This document shows positions 1 to 11,740 of a DNA stretch of 62,573 bases, one piece after another. Location: positions 515,271 to 577,843 of the forward strand of contig JAUJMR010000001.1 of NCBI GenBank assembly GCA_030446765.1, written 5' to 3'. The stretch is from Chloroflexia bacterium. GTDB lineage: Bacteria > Chloroflexota > Chloroflexia > Thermobaculales > Thermobaculaceae. Numbering within the stretch: position 1 is the first letter of the stretch; every line of letters starts with the position of its first letter. The notes below the pieces were generated by a model. It was not told the origin of the DNA. It saw only the letters and a program-made list of their open reading frames with translations, and ran no database searches. Both the position numbers and the translations under genes were made by a program.

Positions 1-3000
1 ACGATCATCACGACGGCGCTCGGTACCGGAGACACGATGAGCCATGCCATCCGTAGCGTGGTGACGGCCAGCCTCGGGCGCGCTGACGAGGTCATCGTTC
101 CCGGCGACACTTCAGGGTGGCGGGCCGACCGCCGCGCAGTCCGCGGCCTCGGGCGCGGTGATGTGGTCGCGAGCGCGGCACGTGGCACCTTCTCATACGC
201 CGAGTATGAACGCATCGCTCAGGGCGCCAGACGGCTCGATTCCGTCGGGGCAATGGCTCCTGCAATAGTGCAGCTGCGCACCGTCGTGGACACGCGCTCG
301 AAGCTTACCGTTCCAGACATCAAGCTCCTTGCCGTGCTGCCCAGCTACGACTCGGCGTTCGGTCAGATACTCGGCCCATCCGGTCCGGTCGGCCTGGACA
401 GACTTCGCGCCAGCGAGGTGTACCTCAACAAGGAGGCGGCTGACGCACTGCTGGCCCGCGCTGGCGACACCATCGAGATCACCGATGCCGAATATCGATC
501 AAGCGACGCACCTTGGCGCGTGCGCGTCCGCGACGTCGTGCGGGCACCGGGGCTGGCGGGAGCACAGGCCTCTATCCTGTTGCCCTTGAACCGCGTATGG
601 ACAGAAGATCCTTCGTGGTGGGATGACGCCAGCATCAATGTAGTCCTCGTGGCGAACAAGGGTGATGATGAAAGCAGTGTGGACCGCTCCGCGGAGGTAA
701 CGAGGGCGCTTCGGAGCACCATCGCAGATCGCAGGGTTGGCGAAGAACTGTACGGACTCATGTCTGCTCAGGAGTTCCGGCGTGCGTTTACCGACTTTGT
801 TCGGGAGCGCGAAATGCAAGCAGACCTTACGGACGAAGCGGAGGTCCGGGTGCTGCGCCGCCTCGGGGAGGAGTTGGGCCGGGGCGAGATGACGGATGAA
901 TTTCTTAGCTTGATGGGCGACCCCACGTTCCTGGGCGAGCTGAGCGACTTCGCCTCTTACGCGTGGGACCTGGAAGGCGTGTACCAGGCGGGCGATCTGA
1001 TCTCACGGCTGCATCCCCTCTCGGTGCGAGAGATCAAGAGCGAGGGACTGGCAAGAGCGGATCTCGCGGGCAGTGTCCTCACGAGTATCTTCCTCGTGCT
1101 CGGTCTCTTCAGCATCGCGGTCGGCATGATGTTGGTCTTTCTGATCTGGGTCATGCTCGCTGCGGAGCGACGCGCCGAGATGGGCACCGCTCGGGCGGTC
1201 GGGATGCAGCGCCGCCACCTTATCCAGACCTTCCTTTTCGAGGGCGCGGTGTACAGCGTTCTGTCCTCCGTGTGCGGCGTGCTCGCCGGCGTCCTGGTGG
1301 GCAGGCTTGCTGTCGAGCTCATGGCCGATATCGTCCGCCGGTACGGGGTGGAGGTCGAGCTGTACTTCGCTCCACGCTCGCTCGTGATCGCGTTTTGCCT
1401 CGGCAGCCTGCTCACGTTCGCCATCGTCCTGTACTGCTCTGATCGCGTTTTGCCTCGGCAGCCTGCTCACGTTCGCCATCGTCCTGTACTGCTCATGGCG
1501 AGTCAGCCGGCTGAACATCGTCGCCGCAGTTCGACACCTGCCGGAGATCGCAGATCGGCGTGTAGGGCGTGCTACCCTGCACACGCTGGTACGCTCGTCG
1601 GTGCTCCATGCGGCGCTCCTGGGGGCTATCGGCGCGCTCTCACTGGCCACGGCCGGACGCTTTCGGCAAGCGTCTTTGTGGGGGCTCGGCATCACCCTAC
1701 TCATTGTGAGCGTCGCGGTGCTCTCCCGCTGGCTACTCGCTCGTGCGCGCCTTCACCACGCAGAACGGGTCGCCTGGACCCTTGCCGGGATGGCGCTACT
1801 GGCGGTCTGGAGCCGCCCTATAGACGGCACGGGCTGGGTCCATCCATACTTGGTCGGCGCGCACGTAGAGGTGTATGTCCTCGCCGGCGTTTTAATGGTC
1901 CTCGGCGCGGTGTGGATCGTGGTCTACAATCTGCCGGCTCTACTACGAGTCATGGAGCGCACGCTCGGGCGGCTCCCGCGAGCAGCGGCGATCCTGCGGA
2001 CGGCGATAGCGTACCCGCAGACCTCGCGCCTCCGCACGGGGATCGTGCTCGCGATGTTCGCCCTGGTCATCTTCACGATGGTGGTCGGCTCGGTCCTCAC
2101 GAGCACGGTATCGGCGGCATACTCGAACGTCCCCGCGATGACCGGCGGCTTCCAGCTCACCGCGACCGCCCGCAGCCCTATCCTGGACGTTCACGAAGCC
2201 CTACGCTCCGCGTCGGCAATCCGGCCCGAGACCTTCACCACCGCGGGCAGCCTGTCCACCCTCAGCGCGGAGGCGCTACGACTGGATATCTCCCCCAGCA
2301 TCTGGCGATCCACGGGGCTCACCGTCGTGGACGACGGCTGGCTACGAGGAGCGGAGTATTCGTTTACGGCCCGCGCGCCCGGTTACGGCTCCGACGCCGA
2401 CATATGGCGTGGGCTACGGGACCGTCCTGGACTGGCCGTGGCGGTCCAGGACGGGGTTTCACAGGTGACCGGGTCAACCAGCCTCAAGAACACCCGACTG
2501 CCCATGGACATCTGGGTACGGGATCCGCGGGGCGGGAAGGCGCTCCGCCTGACGGTGATCGCGTTGCTCGACCCGCGGTCTGACGTGAGCGGTGTGCTGA
2601 CTTCGGAGCAGAACGTGACGCGCAGCATCCCCCGGTGGGACTGGTCGTCCTACGCCTTCAAGGTGGCTCCGGGCGCGGACGTGCGCGCCGCGGCGCTCGG
2701 CCTGGAGCTCTCGTTCAGCGACCAACTGATGACGGTCGATCTCTCGGGCGAGCAAGCGTTGCGCCGGGAGGCGGTGCGCATCCTGTTGAACTATCTGCTC
2801 ACGGGTTTCATGGGACTCGGGCTCATTGTTGGGATCGCGGCACTCGGCGTCATCGCAACACGCGCGGTCGTCGAGCGGCGGCGCCAGATAGCGACCCTTC
2901 GCGCCGTCGGCTTCCGCGCCGGGGCGGTGCAGCTTGGACTCCTCCTGGAGGCCAGCACGGTCGCCGCGCTGGGCATCCTCCTTGGTGTTGCCCTCGGCCT

Positions 3001-3184
3001 TGTCATCGCCCGCAATCTCGTAGCGCACTTATCGGCGAACTACCCGGAACTGGTGCTTACCGTGCCGTGGACACAGGTTGTTCTGCTCTCGATGGGGGCG
3101 TGGGCGTCCGTCCTGCTTACGACCGTGCTTCCCGCATGGCAGGCCGCGCGCATACCACCCGCGGCGAGCCTCCGAACAACATAG
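1..3184 (+). CDS. FtsX-family (MacB/LolC-type) ABC transporter permease, 5'-truncated by the window and frameshifted
   Basis: The reading frame is open from base 1, so the true start lies upstream; the ATG at 37 is internal, because the residues before it (ending GTGDT) already match the early part of FtsX permeases. A first FtsX block of membrane segments with a cytosolic ERRAEMGTARAVG stretch lies near 1070-1440. A second, with ERRRQIATLRAVGF, lies near 2790-3170, and the protein ends in the usual P-A-ASLR tail. Large extracytoplasmic regions separate the two. An exact 55-bp tandem duplication (1385-1494) shifts the frame from 1 to 2; collapsing it rejoins the two halves. The ATPase partner is not in the window. 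The family exports lipids, peptides or drugs, or regulates envelope hydrolases; the substrate cannot be told here. Confidence 0.85.
1385..1494. repeat. Exact 55-bp tandem duplication inside the permease gene
   Basis: Bases 1385-1439 and 1440-1494 are identical (both begin TGATCGCGTT and end TGTACTGCTC). Because 55 is not a multiple of three, the copy breaks the reading frame, and removing one copy restores it. It is either a replication-slippage mutation or an assembly artefact. Confidence 0.95.
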
Positions 3185-3369
3185 ACGTTCCGTCCGACCG
3201 CAGTGCGTCCGGACGTATCCGTGGGCATGAATGCACAGGATTTGTAATTCGAGTGTGGTGACAAACGTCCATTTGGGAAGAGTCTGGTACGCGGTGTGCG
3301 TAATGAGACCTCGCGCGATTAAGGACGCGTAGTACGAAACACCTCAAACCAGTCAGGAGAACCCGAGTA

Positions 3370-3777
3370 ATGGCAAAGACATTCATGGACATGGTCCAGG
3401 AGGCACGACAGGAAGTACAGCCTGTGAGTGCCCAGGAAGCACAGACAAAGGTCGAGCAGGAGCCGAACACGCTCATTGTAGATGTACGCGAGCCGTCGGG
3501 AATAGCTGAGACGGGCGCGATTCCGGGCTCGCTTAACGTGCCACTCGGTACGCTCGCCATGAGCGCCGACCAGCAGCTGCCCGAGGAGATGCGCAACGCG
3601 GAGCTGCAGGACCGCTCTCGTCCGGTGATCACGACGTGTGGGCTCGGTGGACAGGCCGCGCTTGCGGCGAAGACCCTTAAGGATATGGGTTTCACGAACG
3701 TCCAATTCATCGATGAGGGCTTCAAGGGATGGCAGGAGGCTGGCCTCCCCGTCGAGCAACGCGCCACATCGAGCTAG
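3370..3777 (+). CDS. Single-domain rhodanese-like sulfurtransferase
   Basis: This 135-residue protein is one rhodanese domain with a short N-terminal helix. The CDC25/rhodanese motif VDVREPSGIAETGAIPGS sits at about residues 37-54. The catalytic loop TTCGLGGQA contains Cys90, the residue that carries the persulfide, so it is predicted to be active. It would act in the cytosol in sulfur transfer or cyanide/thiosulfate handling. A good ribosome site (AGGAGA, 9 nt upstream) supports the ATG. It stands alone between the permease and the proteases and is followed by a strong hairpin. Confidence 0.9.
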   Translation: MAKTFMDMVQEARQEVQPVSAQEAQTKVEQEPNTLIVDVREPSGIAETGAIPGSLNVPLGTLAMSADQQLPEEMRNAELQDRSRPVITTCGLGGQAALAAKTLKDMGFTNVQFIDEGFKGWQEAGLPVEQRATSS

Positions 3778-3791
3778 AAGTCCCATTGCCA

Positions 3792-3824
3792 GTGGGGGAG
3801 GCGTTTGGGACAGACCTCCCCCAC
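3792..3824 (+). terminator. Hairpin after the rhodanese gene
   Basis: A perfect 10-bp stem, GTGGGGGAGG (3792-3801) with CCTCCCCCAC (3815-3824), and a 13-nt loop lie 15 bp after the stop codon. There is no long T run, so it resembles an intrinsic terminator of the GC-rich type. Confidence 0.7.
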
Positions 3825-3929
3825 CCTTACCGTCAGGCCCGCGCCTAGTCAGATGACCGATGTCGAGTCCGTGTGTCCATGGGTATCCTGTAGCCAGTAA
3901 GCAGGGATACAACGAACGGAGGTTCAACC

Positions 3930-4853
3930 ATGACACAGACTTTTGATACCGCATCGAGCGGAACGCTTTCGGCTCTATCCGACGAGCTTGCGAAGGCAGT
4001 CGAGGTGGCGGGAAACTCGGTCGTCTGCGTTGATGCCCGGCGGGGAAATGCCTCCAGCGGCATCGTCTGGAACGCAGAGGGGCACATCCTCACCGCCGAT
4101 CACACCATTGAGCACGACGCGGAGATTCCGGTACACGCTGGCGATGGCCGGTCGATGCAGGCGACGATCGTCGGCCGCGATCCTGGCTCCGACCTCGCGC
4201 TTCTCAAGGTTGATCCGGATGGACTCACGCCAATCGAACACGCACCCGAAACCAGCGCGCGCGTCGGCAGCCTGGTCCTCGCCATCGGACGCCCCGGTCC
4301 GGCTGGCACAATGGCCACGATGGGTATCATCAGCGCAGTCGGCGGCTCGTGGCGAACAGCCCGCGGCAGCCAGCTCGACCAGTACGTCCGCACCGATGCG
4401 ACGCTTTATCCGGGCTTCTCGGGCGGGCCGCTCGTGGACGCCGCGGGCCGGCTCGTCGCGGTCAATAGCTGGACCCTCAGCCAGGGCGCCGGACTGGCGA
4501 TCCCCGTGAGCACGGCCTCGCGCCTTGTACAGGCTCTTGCGCACGGCGGGGTGAAGCGCGCGTTTCTCGGCGTCGGCACACAGGTTGTCCCCCTGCCCCA
4601 GGTCGTCCGCGAGGCCATCGGCGGACAGGAGACGGGTCTCATTGTCCTCTCGCTCGTTCAGGATGGACCTGCCGAGCGAGCAGGGTTCTTCATCGGCGAT
4701 GTCCTGGTCTCTATCGACGGCACCGTCCTCGCAAATCCGGACGCGCTGCAGGCACAGCTCACACCCGAGCGCGTAGGCACGCCGGTGCAGATGCGGATCG
4801 TCCGTGGCGGCGAGCTGCGGGACATCACGGTGGAACTCGGCCAGCGGGATTAG
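3930..4853 (+). CDS. HtrA/DegP-like trypsin-fold serine protease with PDZ domain
   Basis: This 307-residue S1C protease has its catalytic triad visible as His58 (TADHTI), Asp88 (GSDLALL) and Ser164 (GFSGGPL). A PDZ domain follows at about residues 215-305. There is no signal peptide or membrane anchor, unlike DegP or classical HtrA, so it is predicted to act in the cytosol. The ribosome site (ACGGAGG, 8 nt upstream) supports the ATG. A paralogue lies 122 bp downstream and a perfect hairpin separates the two. The substrate is unknown; the family does protein quality control or regulated proteolysis. Confidence 0.88.
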   Translation: MTQTFDTASSGTLSALSDELAKAVEVAGNSVVCVDARRGNASSGIVWNAEGHILTADHTIEHDAEIPVHAGDGRSMQATIVGRDPGSDLALLKVDPDGLTPIEHAPETSARVGSLVLAIGRPGPAGTMATMGIISAVGGSWRTARGSQLDQYVRTDATLYPGFSGGPLVDAAGRLVAVNSWTLSQGAGLAIPVSTASRLVQALAHGGVKRAFLGVGTQVVPLPQVVREAIGGQETGLIVLSLVQDGPAERAGFFIGDVLVSIDGTVLANPDALQAQLTPERVGTPVQMRIVRGGELRDITVELGQRD

Positions 4854-4883
4854 GACAGGCTGATGACTACTAGCCGCCAACGC

Positions 4884-4905
4884 GGGGCGTTCGATTGAAC
4901 GCCCC
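4884..4905 (+). terminator. Hairpin between the two HtrA genes
   Basis: A perfect 9-bp stem GGGGCGTTC/GAACGCCCC with a GATT loop lies 30 bp after the first protease stop. No T run follows. It probably separates the two transcripts or stabilises the 3' end. Confidence 0.65.
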
Positions 4906-4975
4906 GGAGCGTCCCTTCCGATGCTAAGTCACCATCCGTCCTTACCAACCTCGCATACCAGCAAAGGCACAAGCG

Positions 4976-5866
4976 ATGGCAATAGAAACCAGGTCTTCCA
5001 GCGTCGCAACCTCACTCTCTTCCCAGTTCTCGGCCGTTTCGGAACGGCTACTGGCGGGCGTGGTTCTGGTCAATTCCGGCCACGGTAGCGGCTCCGGCAC
5101 AATATGGCGCAGAGACGGGTTGATCGTCACGAATCACCACGTCGTCCGAGATGAGACGGCCAGCGTCACCCTATCTACCGGCGAGCGGTTCTCCGCAGAA
5201 GTTGAGATGCGCGATCACAATCACGACCTCGCTGCCCTACGGATCGACGCGACCGACCTTCCCGCCCTCCCACCTGGTGACTCTATCCACACGCATGCCG
5301 GCCAGTGGGTGCTCGCGGCTGGCAACCCGATGGGCATGCGCGGCGTCGTGACCGTGGGCATTATCACGGGGGTTGGCCAGGTGCCGGGACCAGAGCGCAC
5401 CTGGCTCGACAACCTGATTCAGGCGGATGTGCTGCTCGCGCCCGGCAACTCCGGCGGTCCGCTCGCAGACGCTCAAGGCCGGGTGCTCGGGATCAATGCG
5501 ATGATTGCCGCCTCAGGCATCGCGCTCGCGGTGCCGACACACATCGTCGAGCGCTTCCTGGAGCCCGCGGAATCCGACCGTACCTATCTGGGCATCACCG
5601 GGACTGAGGTGCACGTCCGAATCAACGGCACGACCCGAAGCGCAATTGTGCTGCTCTCCGTCGAGGAGTGGGGGCCCGCCGAGCGAGCCGGATTGTTTCA
5701 AGGCGATGTTCTGCTCTCGCTCAACGGCACCGACGTTCGGTCCACGGAAGAACTGCAGAGAGTGCTCTGGACCCATGGAGGGCATGCCTCCCTCGAGATT
5801 GTCGCACTGCGCCAAAGTGCGACCCGTCATTTCACCGTGGCGCCAGCGGTCCGGGCGGCGGCATAG
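4976..5866 (+). CDS. Second HtrA-like serine protease with PDZ domain
   Basis: This 296-residue paralogue of the preceding protease has its triad at His55 (TNHHVV), Asp84 (HNHDLAAL) and Ser159 (PGNSGGPL), with a PDZ domain at about residues 200-290. It too lacks a signal peptide. Its TAG stop shares a base with the GTG start of the next gene, a NarL-type regulator, so protease and regulator are probably translationally coupled. No strong ribosome site is visible before the ATG. The two proteases look like a local duplication followed by divergence. Confidence 0.88.
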   Translation: MAIETRSSSVATSLSSQFSAVSERLLAGVVLVNSGHGSGSGTIWRRDGLIVTNHHVVRDETASVTLSTGERFSAEVEMRDHNHDLAALRIDATDLPALPPGDSIHTHAGQWVLAAGNPMGMRGVVTVGIITGVGQVPGPERTWLDNLIQADVLLAPGNSGGPLADAQGRVLGINAMIAASGIALAVPTHIVERFLEPAESDRTYLGITGTEVHVRINGTTRSAIVLLSVEEWGPAERAGLFQGDVLLSLNGTDVRSTEELQRVLWTHGGHASLEIVALRQSATRHFTVAPAVRAAA

Positions 5867-6524
5867 TGATTCGCGTGCTCGTGATCTCGCCGTTTCCGAC
5901 GGTCCGTGCGGGACTGCGTGCGCTCATCGAAGGGCACGACAATCTCGAAGTGGCGGAGGCAAGGGTGTCCATCGACCAGAGCTCCCTCGTGCAGGACACG
6001 GCGGATGTGGCGCTGATCGATGGCGAGTCAGATATCGCTGCAATCGAAGCACTGGCACGGACGCGACCGGATCTCGCGGTCATCCTGATGGGGGGCAAGG
6101 TCCCCGGCGACCTCACCGCCACGCACGGGGCTCGTGGGTACCTCCGGCGAGATGCGGGCGAGGACGAGATCGTAGCGGCAGTGCGCGCTGTGGGGAGCGG
6201 ACTCACCGTCGTCGACCCGGTCAGGATCGAGGAGGTGCTGGCACGCCCCGAAGGCCGGCAACCAGTGCAGTCTCCCACCGGTGAGACGCTGACGCGCCGA
6301 GAGATGGAAGTGCTCCAGCTAATCGCGGATGGACTGCCAAATAAGACGATCGCGATGCAGCTGGTGCTCCAACTAATCGCGGATGGACTGCCAAATAAGA
6401 CGATCGCGATGCAGCTTGGGATCAGCGAGCACACGGCAAACAACTTCTCTCCTCGCCAAGCGGTGCATTCAGCCGCACAGAAGCGGTGAGCACCGCTGCG
6501 CGGCGGGGTCTTCTCGTTCTGTAG
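5866..6524 (+). CDS. NarL/LuxR-type response regulator with degenerate receiver, duplicated helix and frameshifts
   Basis: The GTG start overlaps the stop of the protease gene by one base. Residues 1-115 form a receiver-like domain. The acidic pair that normally binds Mg2+ is replaced by Ser-Pro (VISPFPTVRAGL), while the possible phospho-Asp52 (LIDGES) remains, so it may be a pseudo-receiver. The LuxR helix-turn-helix begins LTRREMEVLQLIADG. An 18-residue in-frame duplication (6311-6418) follows, and the end is out of frame. The expected C-terminus (TEAVSTAARRGLLVL, stop at 6522-6524) is found in another frame, and small deletions near 6442 and 6463 would explain this. No histidine kinase gene is nearby. 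Confidence 0.75.
6311..6418. repeat. 54-bp near-exact tandem duplication in the HTH coding region
   Basis: Bases 6311-6364 and 6365-6418 match at all but two positions. The duplication is in frame (18 residues) and repeats LQLIADGLPNKTIAMQL, the first helices of the LuxR-type DNA-binding domain. The two differences argue somewhat against a pure assembly artefact. Confidence 0.93.
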
Positions 6525-6768: not shown

Positions 6769-7709
6769 TCAGCGTGCGCTCTTCAAGCGGGGCATTACAT
6801 CCCGCGCGAACAGCTCAATGCCCGCGGTGTCAGGGAAGTCCACCACGCGCACGATGAGATATTCGACGCCGAGATCGAGGAACGGCTGCAGTTGGTCCGC
6901 CACCTGCTCCGGTGTGCCGATGATCGGATGGTTGTCGTAGGGTGATGCTTCGGCGATACGGCGCGCCTCGGTCTCGGTGGGCGCGACCGCTATGGCCTCC
7001 GCCGACCAGGTCTTGACGATACTATCGTAGTCACGCCCCACATCCACACAGTGTTTGCGCAGCACGTCGAGCTTGTGGGCGTAGTTGGCCGCGGTCCCGC
7101 CCGGGATGTTCCACCAGTCCGCGTACTGGGCCACCAGGCGCAACGTCCGACGCTCGCCCCCGCCACCGATCATCACCGGCGGGAGGGATTTGGGCGCGGT
7201 TCGCAGTAGGCGTTCTCTATCCGGTAGTGGCTGCCGTCAAAGCTCGCGGGCGATTCGGTCCACATGCACCGCACGACCCGAAGCGTCTCTTCTAGCTGAG
7301 CAAGGCGTGTTGCGGCCCTGGGGAACGCGAAATCGTACGCCTGATACTCTTCCTCCGCCCACCCTGCGCCGATGCCGAACAGCAGCCGTCCACCCGTCAG
7401 GAGTTGCAGATTAGCCGCCATCTTCGCCAGCAGAGCCGGGTTCCGATATGACTGGCAGAGCACGCTCGCGCCGACGTCCAGCGCCGGGTACATGGCGGCG
7501 AGATACGTCATGGTGGTCACGCATTCCAGATATGGCGTGTCGTTGGACTGCCACTTTGCCCACGGCATAAGGTGGTCATCGACCCAGATCGAGTTGAAGA
7601 ACGGATGAATCGTTCGCAGAGTGTGGTGGATTTGCGCGACGAACGTCGCCCCGTCACTGCCATCCACCGGAAACGAGGGTATGTGCCAGCCGAAGCGAAG
7701 GTCGTGCAC
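6769..7709 (-). CDS. LLM-class (luciferase-like) flavin-dependent oxidoreductase, one frameshift
   Basis: Two abutting minus-strand fragments form one bacterial-luciferase-like TIM barrel of about 313 residues. The N-terminal part (7709-7180) has LRFGWHIPSFP and the TGGRLLFGIGAGWAEEEY motif typical of F420- or FMN-dependent monooxygenases. The C-terminal part (about 7180-6769) begins PPVMIGGGGERRTLRLVAQYADWWN, continuing directly after ENAYCEPRPNPS. One missing base near 7180 splits them. A GTG at 7709 with GGAGGA 10 nt upstream is the likely start; an upstream in-frame GTG at 7733 has no such site. Substrate and cofactor (FMN or F420) cannot be decided. Confidence 0.85.
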
Positions 7710-7776
7710 CGTTGATGTTCCTCCGTACCGCACTACAGTTGTCGCGCACGCCCCGCCGGTACCCGTCTCCCCGCGT

Positions 7777-8259: not shown

Positions 8260-10785
8260 ATGCACATCGCCTTCCTCAACCCTCAGGGCAACTTCGATCC
8301 CGCCGATAGCTACTGGACGGCGCACCCGGACTTCGGTGGACAACTCGTATACGTGAAGGAGTTGGCGCTCGCGATGGGGCGCCTCGGCCACCGCATCGAC
8401 ATCGCGACTCGCCAGGTCGTTGACACCGCGTGGCCGGAGTTCGCGTCCGTCGACGATGCCTATCCAGGGCACCCAAACGTTCGAATCGTGCGGGTGCCGT
8501 GCGGGCCGCCCACGTTCCTCCGAAAAGAAGATCTGTGGCCATACCTCGGCTCCGGGTTCGTGCCGAACCTTCTGGAACGGTACCGACGCGAAGGTTCGAT
8601 GCCCGATCTCACCACCGCCCACTATGGTGACGGTGGGCTCTGCGGCGCGCTGATCGAGGAGCGCACCGGGATACCGTTCAGCTTCACCGCGCACTCGCTT
8701 GGTGCACAGAAGATGGACAAGCTGAACACCGCTCGACGCAACCTCGCCGCACTCGACGAGGAGTACCACTTCACGCAGCGCATCGTGGCGGAGCGCCTCG
8801 CGATGAATCGCTCCAGGGTGAACATCACCAGCACCTCCCAGGAGCGCTACAGCCAGTACTCCCACAACGCCTACCGGGGCGCGGTGGATGCCACCGACGA
8901 CGAGCGCTTCGCCGTCGTCCCGCCCGGCGTCGCGATGGATGTCTTCGACCGAGCCAGCAAGTACGCCGGAGAGGAGGCCGTACACCAGCATGTGCGCGCA
9001 TGCCTGATCCGAGATCTGCGACCGGAGCGAACAGAACTACCCTGCGTGGTCGCATCCAGCCGACTGGATCCGAAGAAGAACCACATCGGACTCTTCGAGG
9101 CATTCGCGGCGAGCCCCGCACTACGCCAGGCAGCAAACCTGGTGATCATCACCGGTGACCTCAATGACCCGCTCTCAGACTACTCCACCACCGGTCCCGG
9201 TGAGCGCGCCGTGCTGGACTCACTAATGGCCGTAGTCGAGCGTGCGGGACTGCGCGGCGAGGTTTCGATGTTCGCGCTTCGAGGCCAGGGCGCACTTGCG
9301 GCTGGATATCGCTACCTCGCGCAAAAGCGCTCTGTATTCGCGCTCACTGCTCTGTATGAGCCGTTCGGTCTCGCACCACTGGAAGCTATGGCGGCGGGCC
9401 TGCCTGCGGTGGTCACGAAGTACGGCGGACCGAGCGAGAGTATGCGTTCCGGAGACGACGAGTACGGCATACTGATAGATCCGCACGACCCCATGGTCGT
9501 CAGCGCCGGACTGTACGCGCTCGTGGCGAACGCGGATCGCTGGAAGCGCTACGCGGACGCCGGCTACAACCGCGTACTTGCGCGCTATACCTGGCGGCGC
9601 ACCGCGGAAGGCTATCTCCAGGCACTGGCCGGAACGCGCACCGCGCTCGACGAGACGGAGCACGAGGTGCGCGCCACCGCCGGTACGACGACCGACGCCG
9701 TCCTGGAGGCGGTGGCACCCGTCGATATTCCCACCGAGCATACCCTGCCCATCCCCCGCTACTTCACGGAGCCGGACTCCGGTGCAGGACTCCCCCTCTC
9801 GATCCTTGATGAGGTGTACTTGAGCCTCGAAGTTCTCACCGTGGGGGAGACGCTCGTCGACTTCATCTCCCACGAGCAGGTACAGTCATTGCGCACCGCG
9901 AGCCAGTTCGTCCGATACCTGGGCGGTCAACCGGCCAACGTCGCGGTGTACGTGGCGAAGCTCGGCTGCCGCTCTGCGGTGCTCTCGAAGGTGGGAACCG
10001 AGTACTTCGGGGAGTTCCTTGAGGAGCAGCTCCAGCGCCACGGGGTCAGCACGGAGGCACTGCATCGCACCGACGCCGCGCCCACCACTAGCGCATTTAT
10101 CACCCGCACGATCAGCGTGCCGGACTTCCAGATCAACCGCGGCGCGGATGCGCTGCTGGAGATCCGCGATGTGCCGGAGGAGTTGATCGAGCGTACGCGG
10201 GCGGTTCACACATCCACCTTCGCGTTGTCCCAGGAACCACAGCGCTCCGCGATTCGCCGCGCACTCCGCCTGGCACATCGTCATGGCAAACTCGTTTCCC
10301 TCGATCCAAACTATTCGCCCCGCGTCTGGCCCGACAAGGAAGAAGCGTGGGAGGTGCTTGCGGAGATCCTGCCGCACGTCACGATCGTCAAGCCGTCGCT
10401 GGAGGACGCGCGCCGTCTCTTCGATCCGAATATGAGTGAGGATGCACTGGAGGAGGCGTGTCTGCGCGAGTTCCACGACCTTGGCGCATCGGTCGTCATC
10501 GTGACGCGGAGCGGCGGCACCGTGACGGTTTCGACCGAGGGACGGGTGGAGCGGGTCGGTCCGCTGCCATTGGTGCCGGTGCAGAATATTACGGGTGGCC
10601 GCGACGCCTTCTGGTCCGCACTGCTCGTCGCTCACCTGGATGGGAAGCCCTGGTCGCTCGCCGTGGCGTTCGCCCACGAGGTCGCCGCGCTGAAGTTGCG
10701 CATTGTCGGCCACGTCGAGCGAGCAATCGACCGCGAGGTCCTCTACCAGAAGCTCGAGCGGCAGTTGGCCGGTCACGGTGTCTGA
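8260..10785 (+). CDS. Sucrose-phosphate-synthase-like GT4 glycosyltransferase fused to a PfkB-type domain
   Basis: An 841-residue fusion. Residues 1-480 form a GT-B glycosyltransferase of the sucrose synthase/sucrose-phosphate synthase group: DFGGQLVYVKEL near 24, FTAHSLGAQK near 142, SRLDPKKN near 266, and the nucleotide-sugar site EPFGLAPLEAMAAGLP near 367. A linker leads to a PfkB ribokinase fold from about 523 to the end. There the usual DTTGAGD catalytic motif reads NITGGRD (776-782): the catalytic Asp is kept but the anion-hole glycine is replaced. AGGAGG six nt before the ATG fixes the start. The next gene, overlapping by 8 nt, is a complete PfkB kinase. Likely role: sucrose or mannosylfructose metabolism; donor and acceptor are unknown. 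Confidence 0.85.
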   Translation: MHIAFLNPQGNFDPADSYWTAHPDFGGQLVYVKELALAMGRLGHRIDIATRQVVDTAWPEFASVDDAYPGHPNVRIVRVPCGPPTFLRKEDLWPYLGSGFVPNLLERYRREGSMPDLTTAHYGDGGLCGALIEERTGIPFSFTAHSLGAQKMDKLNTARRNLAALDEEYHFTQRIVAERLAMNRSRVNITSTSQERYSQYSHNAYRGAVDATDDERFAVVPPGVAMDVFDRASKYAGEEAVHQHVRACLIRDLRPERTELPCVVASSRLDPKKNHIGLFEAFAASPALRQAANLVIITGDLNDPLSDYSTTGPGERAVLDSLMAVVERAGLRGEVSMFALRGQGALAAGYRYLAQKRSVFALTALYEPFGLAPLEAMAAGLPAVVTKYGGPSESMRSGDDEYGILIDPHDPMVVSAGLYALVANADRWKRYADAGYNRVLARYTWRRTAEGYLQALAGTRTALDETEHEVRATAGTTTDAVLEAVAPVDIPTEHTLPIPRYFTEPDSGAGLPLSILDEVYLSLEVLTVGETLVDFISHEQVQSLRTASQFVRYLGGQPANVAVYVAKLGCRSAVLSKVGTEYFGEFLEEQLQRHGVSTEALHRTDAAPTTSAFITRTISVPDFQINRGADALLEIRDVPEELIERTRAVHTSTFALSQEPQRSAIRRALRLAHRHGKLVSLDPNYSPRVWPDKEEAWEVLAEILPHVTIVKPSLEDARRLFDPNMSEDALEEACLREFHDLGASVVIVTRSGGTVTVSTEGRVERVGPLPLVPVQNITGGRDAFWSALLVAHLDGKPWSLAVAFAHEVAALKLRIVGHVERAIDREVLYQKLERQLAGHGV

Positions 10786-11740
10786 CCCAACCGCCACCTC
10801 TCCCAACACGCCGGACCTCGACGTCGTGGCGATTGGCGAGTTGCTCATCGACCTGATCTCCACGGAGCCTGCCCCGTCGCTACGAGACTCTGCCGGCTTT
10901 GGCAGGCACCAGGGCGGGGCGGCGGCGAACCTGGCGGTCAACGTGGCGAAGCTAGGTGGCCGCTCCGCGCTCGTGGCAAAGACGGGCATTGGGGCGTTCG
11001 GACAGTACTGCAAGAACGAGTTGAATCGCTTCGGCGTGCTCACCGACTACCTGGTTATGGACCACCGCGTCCGCACCACCATGGTGTTTGTGGCCCGAAC
11101 CGCCGGGACTCCGGACTTCGAGGTCGCGCGTCAGGGCGACGCCGAGCTCCGGCCCGACGAGGTAGCAGGGGAGGCCATCGCGCGCGCACGGCTCGTGCAC
11201 ACCACCGCCTTCGCCCTGTCACGAGAACCATGTCGCTCCGCGGTGCTCCACGCAGTTCGCCTTGCCAAGCAACATGGTAGGCTGGTCTCGCTCGACCCGA
11301 ACTACCACCCAGATGTGTGGCGCAACCTGTTCGAGGCTCGTGTGGTACTCAGCAAGCTGTACCGCCTGGTGGACCTTACCAAGCCGTCGCTCGACGACGC
11401 CGAGCGATTGTGGGGTCCAGGACGCCCTCCTGAAGAATACGTTGAAATCTACTCCGAGCTTGGCGCGGGTACTGTTGTGCTCACGATGGGGTCCGAAGGC
11501 GCGATCGTACGGCATGACGGCAAGACCACCTATCTGGCGCCGCGCGCCCTTGAGGTCGCGGATACCACGGGCGCAGGTGACGCCTACTGGTCAGGGTTCC
11601 TGGTAGCGTGGCTCGACGGTCACGCTCCGGAACAATGCGCCCTCTTCGCAAGGGAGGTGGTTGAGCATAAACTGCGCACCGTCGGTCCGCTACCCCAGAA
11701 CCTCGACCGGCGGGACCTGTATGCGGCAGTCACGGGTTAG
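10778..11740 (+). CDS. PfkB-family carbohydrate kinase (fructokinase-like)
   Basis: A 320-residue free-standing ribokinase-fold sugar kinase. It has the N-terminal substrate-lid region (GRHQGGAAANLAVNVAKLGG) and the canonical DTTGAGDAYWSGF motif near residue 260, so it should be active. It starts at a GTG that overlaps the stop region of the fusion gene by 8 nt, which implies translational coupling. It is clearly paralogous to the PfkB domain fused to the glycosyltransferase (shared VHTTAFALSREP / VHTSTFALSQEP and VSLDPNY segments). A fructokinase would supply or remove the hexose for the neighbouring enzyme; that assignment is inference. Confidence 0.88.
   Translation: MSDPTATSPNTPDLDVVAIGELLIDLISTEPAPSLRDSAGFGRHQGGAAANLAVNVAKLGGRSALVAKTGIGAFGQYCKNELNRFGVLTDYLVMDHRVRTTMVFVARTAGTPDFEVARQGDAELRPDEVAGEAIARARLVHTTAFALSREPCRSAVLHAVRLAKQHGRLVSLDPNYHPDVWRNLFEARVVLSKLYRLVDLTKPSLDDAERLWGPGRPPEEYVEIYSELGAGTVVLTMGSEGAIVRHDGKTTYLAPRALEVADTTGAGDAYWSGFLVAWLDGHAPEQCALFAREVVEHKLRTVGPLPQNLDRRDLYAAVTG

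Follow-up and report, generated by a model that had tools for sequence, protein, structure and literature searches.

The fusion gene and the kinase gene beside it

The DNA analysed here is a stretch of 62,573 nucleotides (the window) from a Chloroflexia bacterium of the Thermobaculaceae (assembly GCA_030446765.1, contig JAUJMR010000001.1, positions 515,271 to 577,843), in which an open reading frame (ORF) on the forward strand at 8260-10785 encodes a glycosyltransferase (GT) fused to a PfkB kinase domain with an altered catalytic motif, hereafter PfkB*. The frame opens with an ATG at 8260 and encodes 841 amino acids. A gene for a free PfkB kinase follows on the same strand (10778..11740, with a possible GTG start at 10778) and shares 8 nt with the fusion gene (10778-10785). 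Coordinates, frame and motif, all read directly, bear out the original prediction of a GT-PfkB fusion carrying NITGGRD, an 8-nt overlap and a canonical paralog as the next gene.

Residues 1-456 of the fusion protein (8260..9627, +) form a GT4 domain of the sucrose-phosphate synthase (SPS) type, assigned from its match to PDB entry 2r60, a Foldseek search with the AlphaFold2 (AF2) model and key residues; the Pfam GT-B/GT4 domains fall within residues 26-437. The linker (9628..9825, +) corresponds to the native C-terminal tail of the GT: comparison of tails places the joint after ...LDEVYLS, while unfused GTs stop at approximately ...LYF. PfkB* occupies residues 523-841 (9826..10782, +), as judged from Pfam, model confidence and ribokinase-fold matches. 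PF00294 was matched at residues 524-814 with 158.9 bits (cut-off 25.8; E=2.4e-46), and among the 50 Foldseek matches listed the ribokinase-fold structures scored 0.76-0.89 in template modelling (TM) score by target length. The AF2 model of the fusion had a mean predicted local distance difference test score (pLDDT) of 88.9 and a predicted TM score of 0.85; pLDDT was mostly >85 in PfkB* and was low in parts of the linker (residues 460-477 and 485-492). Two motifs of PfkB* are altered. TRSGGT (residues 749-754; 10504..10521, +) stands at the former TxGxxG loop, which reads TMGxxG in free relatives, and NITGGRD (residues 776-782; 10585..10605, +) stands at the former DxTGAGD catalytic motif, with the Arg781 codon at 10600-10602 and the catalytic base Asp782 kept. 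The C-terminal S6PP/HAD domain (PF05116) that marks bidomain proteins of SPS and sucrose-phosphate phosphatase (SPP) was absent from the fusion protein in the Pfam search.

The free kinase carries the canonical DTTGAGD (11561..11581, +; read directly) and matches the Pfam PfkB profile with E=1.8e-48. Its PfkB region is ~44% identical to PfkB*, and the closest solved relative of both in a sequence search was the fructokinase of Halothermothrix orenii (3hj6). Neither reached the cut-off of the fructokinase equivalog NF006957 (450 bits), the fused domain scoring 122 and the free kinase 143 bits. The position of fructokinase Arg192, which is Arg in the H. orenii enzyme, was occupied by another residue in 58 of 59 distinct free relatives, and for this reason fructose is a putative substrate of the free kinase.

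Distribution, residue pattern and selection

The original prediction had proposed a search for the fusion elsewhere and a phylogeny of the PfkB domains. The search, which scored the two top candidates of each genome in the Anaerolineae, Actinomycetota and Pseudomonadota samples and six in the class of the window, returned 22 fusion genomes, from Thermobaculaceae-like Chloroflexota, Anaerolineae and Rubrobacteraceae. The fusion was present in 5/158 genomes of the window's own class, 14/39 of the Rubrobacter class (plus one fragment in G189) and 3/396 sampled Anaerolineae; none was found outside Rubrobacteria in the samples of Actinomycetota (396) and Pseudomonadota (398). A contig scan gave 24 loci, most of them with the fusion and the remainder with unfused GTs or fragments, under the record names Thermobaculum, Chloroflexia, Rubrobacter or Rubrobacteraceae, Actinobacteria and Anaerolineae.

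The catalytic motif was readable in 21 of the 22 fusions and was GARD or GGRD in 19, SGGD in one (genome G554) and GAGD in one (genome G207). Thus, beyond what chance would give, 20/21 readable fusions were non-canonical, compared to 0/59 free relatives, all 59 of which keep GAGD; a further 24 PfkB rows classed as other comprised 22 with GAGD and 2 with no readable motif. With the identity given above, these counts support the claim of two paralogous kinases of which the fused copy is degenerate. Many relatives with a canonical GAGD had been named as the result that would speak against it, and there was one, the earliest-branching G207. A simple base error is ruled out, given that the motif is common to relatives. 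We likewise consider it very improbable that the changed motif stems from faulty sequencing or assembly or belongs to a decaying pseudogene. The draft state of the genome (110 contigs) and the disrupted look of other genes in the window speak for such an origin, but the same class of change recurs in 19/21 readable fusion genomes from separate assemblies, the ratio of nonsynonymous to synonymous divergence (dN/dS) is far below 1, and the domain evolves more slowly than its intact paralog.

For the phylogeny, a threshold of 97.5% identity left 104 of 159 PfkB segments, and the tree was built from 95 rows with the motif masked, after 10 of the 24 other rows were dropped and one reference was added. 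All 21 fused rows fell into one clade (support 100/99) with G207 branching first; the backbone of the free kinases was not resolved. The original prediction of a duplicated kinase with one copy fused therefore stands as to paralogy and is not supported as to a duplication local to this gene pair, since the fused clade is far older and spans several lineages; a recent local duplication is ruled out on the same ground. G554 branches after G176, and its SGGD may reflect a partial reversal or else an independent loss. In a quick GT tree the fused GTs did not form a strict group (3 changes) and a few unfused Anaerolineae GTs nested near them, so that the fusion may later have been lost in places, or domains exchanged.

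In the ribokinase family, the TxGxxG loop and the GxGD motif contact the ATP phosphates. To compare residues, 19 fused rows were aligned with 59 rows of free kinases, and G207 and G554 were kept apart; one fused row (G169) stops before the motif, leaving 18 that reach it. Free rows were invariant at D262 and G267 of the catalytic motif (59/59 each) and nearly so at G238 (57/59) and G241 (58/59) of the loop. The fused rows instead had R781 in 18/18 and N (10) or S (8) at position 776, together with S751 in 18/18, R750 in 16/18 and T, A, V or L at position 754 in 16/18. On the sugar side, E530, D534, G555, G556, N560, R627 and D630 were kept in 19/19 fused rows. The N-terminal GG motif (G555-G556) is thus present, and the model matches the ribokinase-fold structures 1rkd, 3hj6 and 2qcv; the G/AXGD motif of the family is replaced by GGRD. 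Of the seven fructose-site residues listed after Chua 2010 in excerpts of PMC5864856 and mapped here by motif, those at E530, D534, N560, V/I614 and D782 are retained. Judged by sequence, the losses in PfkB* are confined to the ATP-phosphate site (TxGxxG and GxGD) while the sugar-pocket positions are near-invariant, and PfkB* is a member of the family by descent and fold and no competent kinase by motif.

We questioned whether the protein might nevertheless be bifunctional, an SPS with an active kinase in PfkB* that tolerates an unusual anion hole. The conserved catalytic Asp and most of the sugar site favor such activity, as do two genomes in which no free partner kinase was detected at E 1e-30: G207, the earliest branch, which keeps GAGD, and G091, whose fusion has GARD. 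Strict co-occurrence of the fusion with a free kinase is accordingly rejected. Against activity, TxGxxG and GxGD are both changed and fixed at positions held constant in 57-59 of 59 free kinases, the helix-starting Gly is replaced by Arg, and an intact paralog is kept alongside in 20/22 genomes. In these 20 the canonical kinase lies next to the fusion, on its downstream side in Chloroflexota and on its upstream side in Rubrobacter. On this evidence we regard a still active PfkB* as improbable. The G091 locus (L189, 6156-8723) encodes an NVTGARD fusion in a genome that is 96% complete, and its next gene is a dihydroorotate dehydrogenase.

Rates of change were compared in the 15 genomes with all three parts (105 pairs, 36 of them cross-lineage). 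Mean identities over all pairs were 77.0% for the GT, 76.6% for PfkB* and 69.0% for the free kinase, and over the cross-lineage pairs 72.4%, 73.8% and 56.0%, respectively; PfkB* was more alike than the free kinase in 82/105 pairs. Measured against the nearest relative, PfkB* had a dN of 0.003 and a dS of 0.18, and the free kinase a dN of 0.021 and a dS of 0.20; for distant pairs dS is near saturation. By these measures PfkB* is under purifying selection and, between lineages, diverges less rapidly than the free kinase, and its high conservation and low dN/dS argue that it is no decaying domain. This conservation also makes plausible the regulatory or binding module that had been proposed.

The fusion probably arose from an ordinary PfkB kinase encoded directly 3' of the GT and then joined to it at the native C-terminus of the GT. 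In Anaerolineae GTs without the fusion the chain stops a few residues past ~...LYF; the fused proteins continue from there as ...LYF-xLDVLAVGE. Most related Anaerolineae encode the GT and the kinase as separate genes, and in most of the unfused relatives listed a canonical kinase gene lies immediately next to that of the GT. Because of the shared joint point and the kinases beside unfused GTs, loss of the intervening stop in a tandem GT-kinase pair is the likely event. At L156 (genome G476, 1929-5532), an SPS-like GT split into two ORFs is flanked by two canonical kinases. A second kinase gene would have been kept or gained alongside the fusion, and the ATP-phosphate features would have been lost after the joining, probably TxGxxG first and then GAGD to GARD or GGRD, with Arg taking the place of the former anion-hole Gly while the fold and most sugar-contacting residues were retained. 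The state of G207, which has GAGD and already an RSGG loop (in a gene read from two contig ends, L153 and L152), suggests that the ATP loop changed before GAGD. At the level of sequence, then, the fused state of the protein, its conservation, the single origin of PfkB*, the residue pattern and the neighbourhood are known.

The glycosyltransferase and its gene neighbourhood

The best solved relative of the GT was H. orenii SPS (2r60; 516 bits, E 7.5e-154), compared to 141 bits for sucrose synthase (4rbn), and 2r60 ranked first in the Foldseek search with the AF2 model (TM 0.85 by target length). The two proteins are 51% identical across the whole GT. Residues H145, K151, R174, R268, K273 and E367, which are invariant in 20/20 fused GTs, correspond to H151, K157, R180, R270, K275 and E369 of H. 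orenii SPS (HoSPS); the catalytic His and the acceptor-phosphate basic residues are thus present, as is the E-x7-E motif (EPFGLAPLE). Residues of comparable role are described for TeSPS in excerpts of PMC7264703, and the TeSPS-HoSPS equivalence behind this assignment of roles is our own reading. Most likely, the GT would convert NDP-glucose and fructose-6-phosphate to sucrose-6-phosphate. We call it SPS-like, and not a certified SPS, because at 286.4 bits it did not reach the cut-off of the NCBIfam SPS equivalog TIGR02472 (576 bits).

The shortfall against the SPS and fructokinase equivalogs leaves room for another ketose disaccharide phosphate, such as mannosylfructose phosphate, as the product of the GT, with the kinase pair acting on another ketose. 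The missing Arg192 equivalent, which the free kinases lack as well, and the lack of a strong SPP match in the 19 fusion genomes tested are in line with such a product. The extent of identity to H. orenii SPS, the retained acceptor-side residues and the H. orenii fructokinase as best solved relative of both PfkB domains speak against it, and we hold another ketose to be unlikely.

Other SPS-like GTs accompany the fused one. A second, unfused one lies elsewhere in this genome (C56), near a trehalose synthase and an APH-family protein, and in Rubrobacter a second, unfused SPS-like GT often lies between the free kinase and the fusion. At most Rubrobacter loci (L051-L059, e.g. L053:6134-7978) this second GT is 50-54% identical to the GT of the window. 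Trp replaces the equivalents of HoSPS Q156 (9/10) and S268 (10/10) in it, which suggests a different donor or acceptor.

Sucrose-phosphatase (PF05116) gave only weak matches, the best at 39.7 bits, in the 19 of 22 fusion genomes searched (all but G190, G207 and G554), with no match in G162 and no strong one in the window's genome. The only strong match was in G172 (284 bits), whose GT is unfused. A GH32 (invertase-type) profile match was found in 8/15 genomes, including that of the window (270 bits). In G176 (Anaerolineae), ABC sugar permease genes and a trehalose synthase lie upstream of the fusion, and in G170 ABC permeases precede an unfused GT-kinase pair. No universal operon surrounded the fusion among the chosen neighbours scanned (162 neighbours listed), the genes elsewhere being unrelated. 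These neighbours would fit a setting that involves a disaccharide, perhaps as an osmolyte. The original prediction had put forward a compact sucrose or mannosylfructose cycle with channelling, which stays a hypothesis: the SPS-type residues of the GT, the GH32 gene and the lack of a strong sucrose-phosphatase match are consistent with the cycle, while G091, with a degenerate fusion and no detected free partner, counts against obligatory channelling.

Several further genes of the window were noted. Neighbouring HtrA/DegP-like genes (Trypsin_2 plus PDZ) at 3930-4853 and 4976-5866 form an apparent tandem pair. A 54-bp tandem duplication (6310-6416, 98% matches) falls in the helix-turn-helix part of a LuxR-type regulator ORF (5668-6489), in which a GerE helix segment is partly repeated and which ends soon after, indicating a disrupted gene or an assembly artefact. 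A luciferase-like monooxygenase on the reverse strand (6769-7733) appears to be broken into two ORFs that overlap in different frames (7173-7733 and 6769-7176) and match PF00296 at consecutive profile positions; it is likely frameshifted.

The possible role of PfkB* and comparison with known systems

Kinase inactivity of PfkB*, its ligand, a role in regulation or docking, and the identity of the substrates are what we infer from the above. On balance we lean, by a little, toward a working SPS-type GT that carries a conserved pseudo-fructokinase domain with a regulatory or docking role. PfkB* would no longer phosphorylate and would bind a sugar or its phosphate instead; by regulating the GT, by docking the intact paralogous kinase, or both, it could let the acceptor phosphosugar form beside the GT. 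PfkB kinases are homodimers formed mainly across the lid, as described in excerpts of PMC5864856. Several observations weigh against a pseudo-fructokinase in this role. The catalytic base D782 is retained in 18/18 fused rows, so that weak activity is possible, and in 23/105 pairs the identity of PfkB* does not exceed that of the free kinase. G091 weakens docking as a universal role, and the TIGR02472 shortfall bears on the SPS assignment itself. Finally, among the listed fructose-site residues, Ala60 corresponds to Q557, which replaces the Ala/Ser beside the GG motif, and Arg192 corresponds to position 686, which is D or S in 18/19 fused rows; the ligand of PfkB* may for these reasons not be fructose.

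A bolder and tentative version of this reading, to which we give appreciably less credence, makes PfkB* a receptor for fructose-6-phosphate: Arg781 and Arg750 would replace the ATP-phosphate contacts, and PfkB* would bind fructose-6-phosphate, rather than fructose and ATP, and switch or feed the SPS. As fructose-6-phosphate is the presumed product of the free kinase, PfkB* would then act as a built-in substrate sensor. It is rather doubtful that PfkB* is purely structural, serving oligomerisation or stability with no ligand role. The fold and model confidence of an intact domain would agree with a scaffold, and the plant FLN1 and FLN2 proteins, which lack fructokinase activity, serve in a complex (PMC5864856, in excerpts); a scaffold, however, would have no need of the invariant sugar-side residues, and the FLNs keep only the catalytic Asp of the seven proposed fructose-site residues in the same source.

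If a pseudo-fructokinase is indeed present, an enzyme that may consume the product of a small-molecule kinase has acquired that kinase as a fused domain. Pseudoenzymes are, to our knowledge, well studied among protein kinases and much less so in the ribokinase family, and no publication on this fusion or on a ribokinase-type pseudokinase was found in the open-licence literature. Intermediates are visible, with GAGD and a changed ATP loop in G207, SGGD in G554 and GARD or GGRD in the rest, making a route from enzyme to regulator testable.

Among known systems, H. orenii SPS (2r60, 2r66, 2r68) and fructokinase (3hj6) are the solved proteins closest in sequence to the GT half and to the two PfkB domains. 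They differ in being single-domain chains, with no fusion in the matched chains, and the fructokinase has a canonical GAGD and TLGEEG. FLN1 and FLN2 resemble PfkB* as PfkB-family proteins without fructokinase activity and with an altered GXGD (GSGD, A/QSGD), as given in excerpts of PMC5864856; unlike PfkB*, they are unfused to a glycosyltransferase, have a long N-terminus and insertions, and do not conserve the sugar-site residues, whereas PfkB* keeps E530, D534, N560 and D782. The sps-spp-fructokinase-amylosucrase operon of Synechococcus PCC 7002 (PMC9971976, in excerpts) likewise places SPS and fructokinase in one operon, but as separate enzymes and together with SPP and amylosucrase, neither of which turned up next to the present fusion. 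The parallel in mode of action is bidomain cyanobacterial and plant SPS, such as Synechocystis SPS6803, in which a dead copy of a pathway neighbour is C-terminal and the intact copy is separate, and for which hand-over of substrate (channelling) to the separate phosphatase has been proposed (excerpts of PMC9971976). That likeness is one of working only: the dead HAD phosphatase acts after SPS, whereas the PfkB kinase is presumed to act before it, and fold and origin differ. If our interpretation is correct, the fusion would be a second independent case of an SPS carrying a dead enzyme from its own pathway, and would bear on the long-standing question of why an inactive phosphatase domain persists in the SPS of plants and cyanobacteria.

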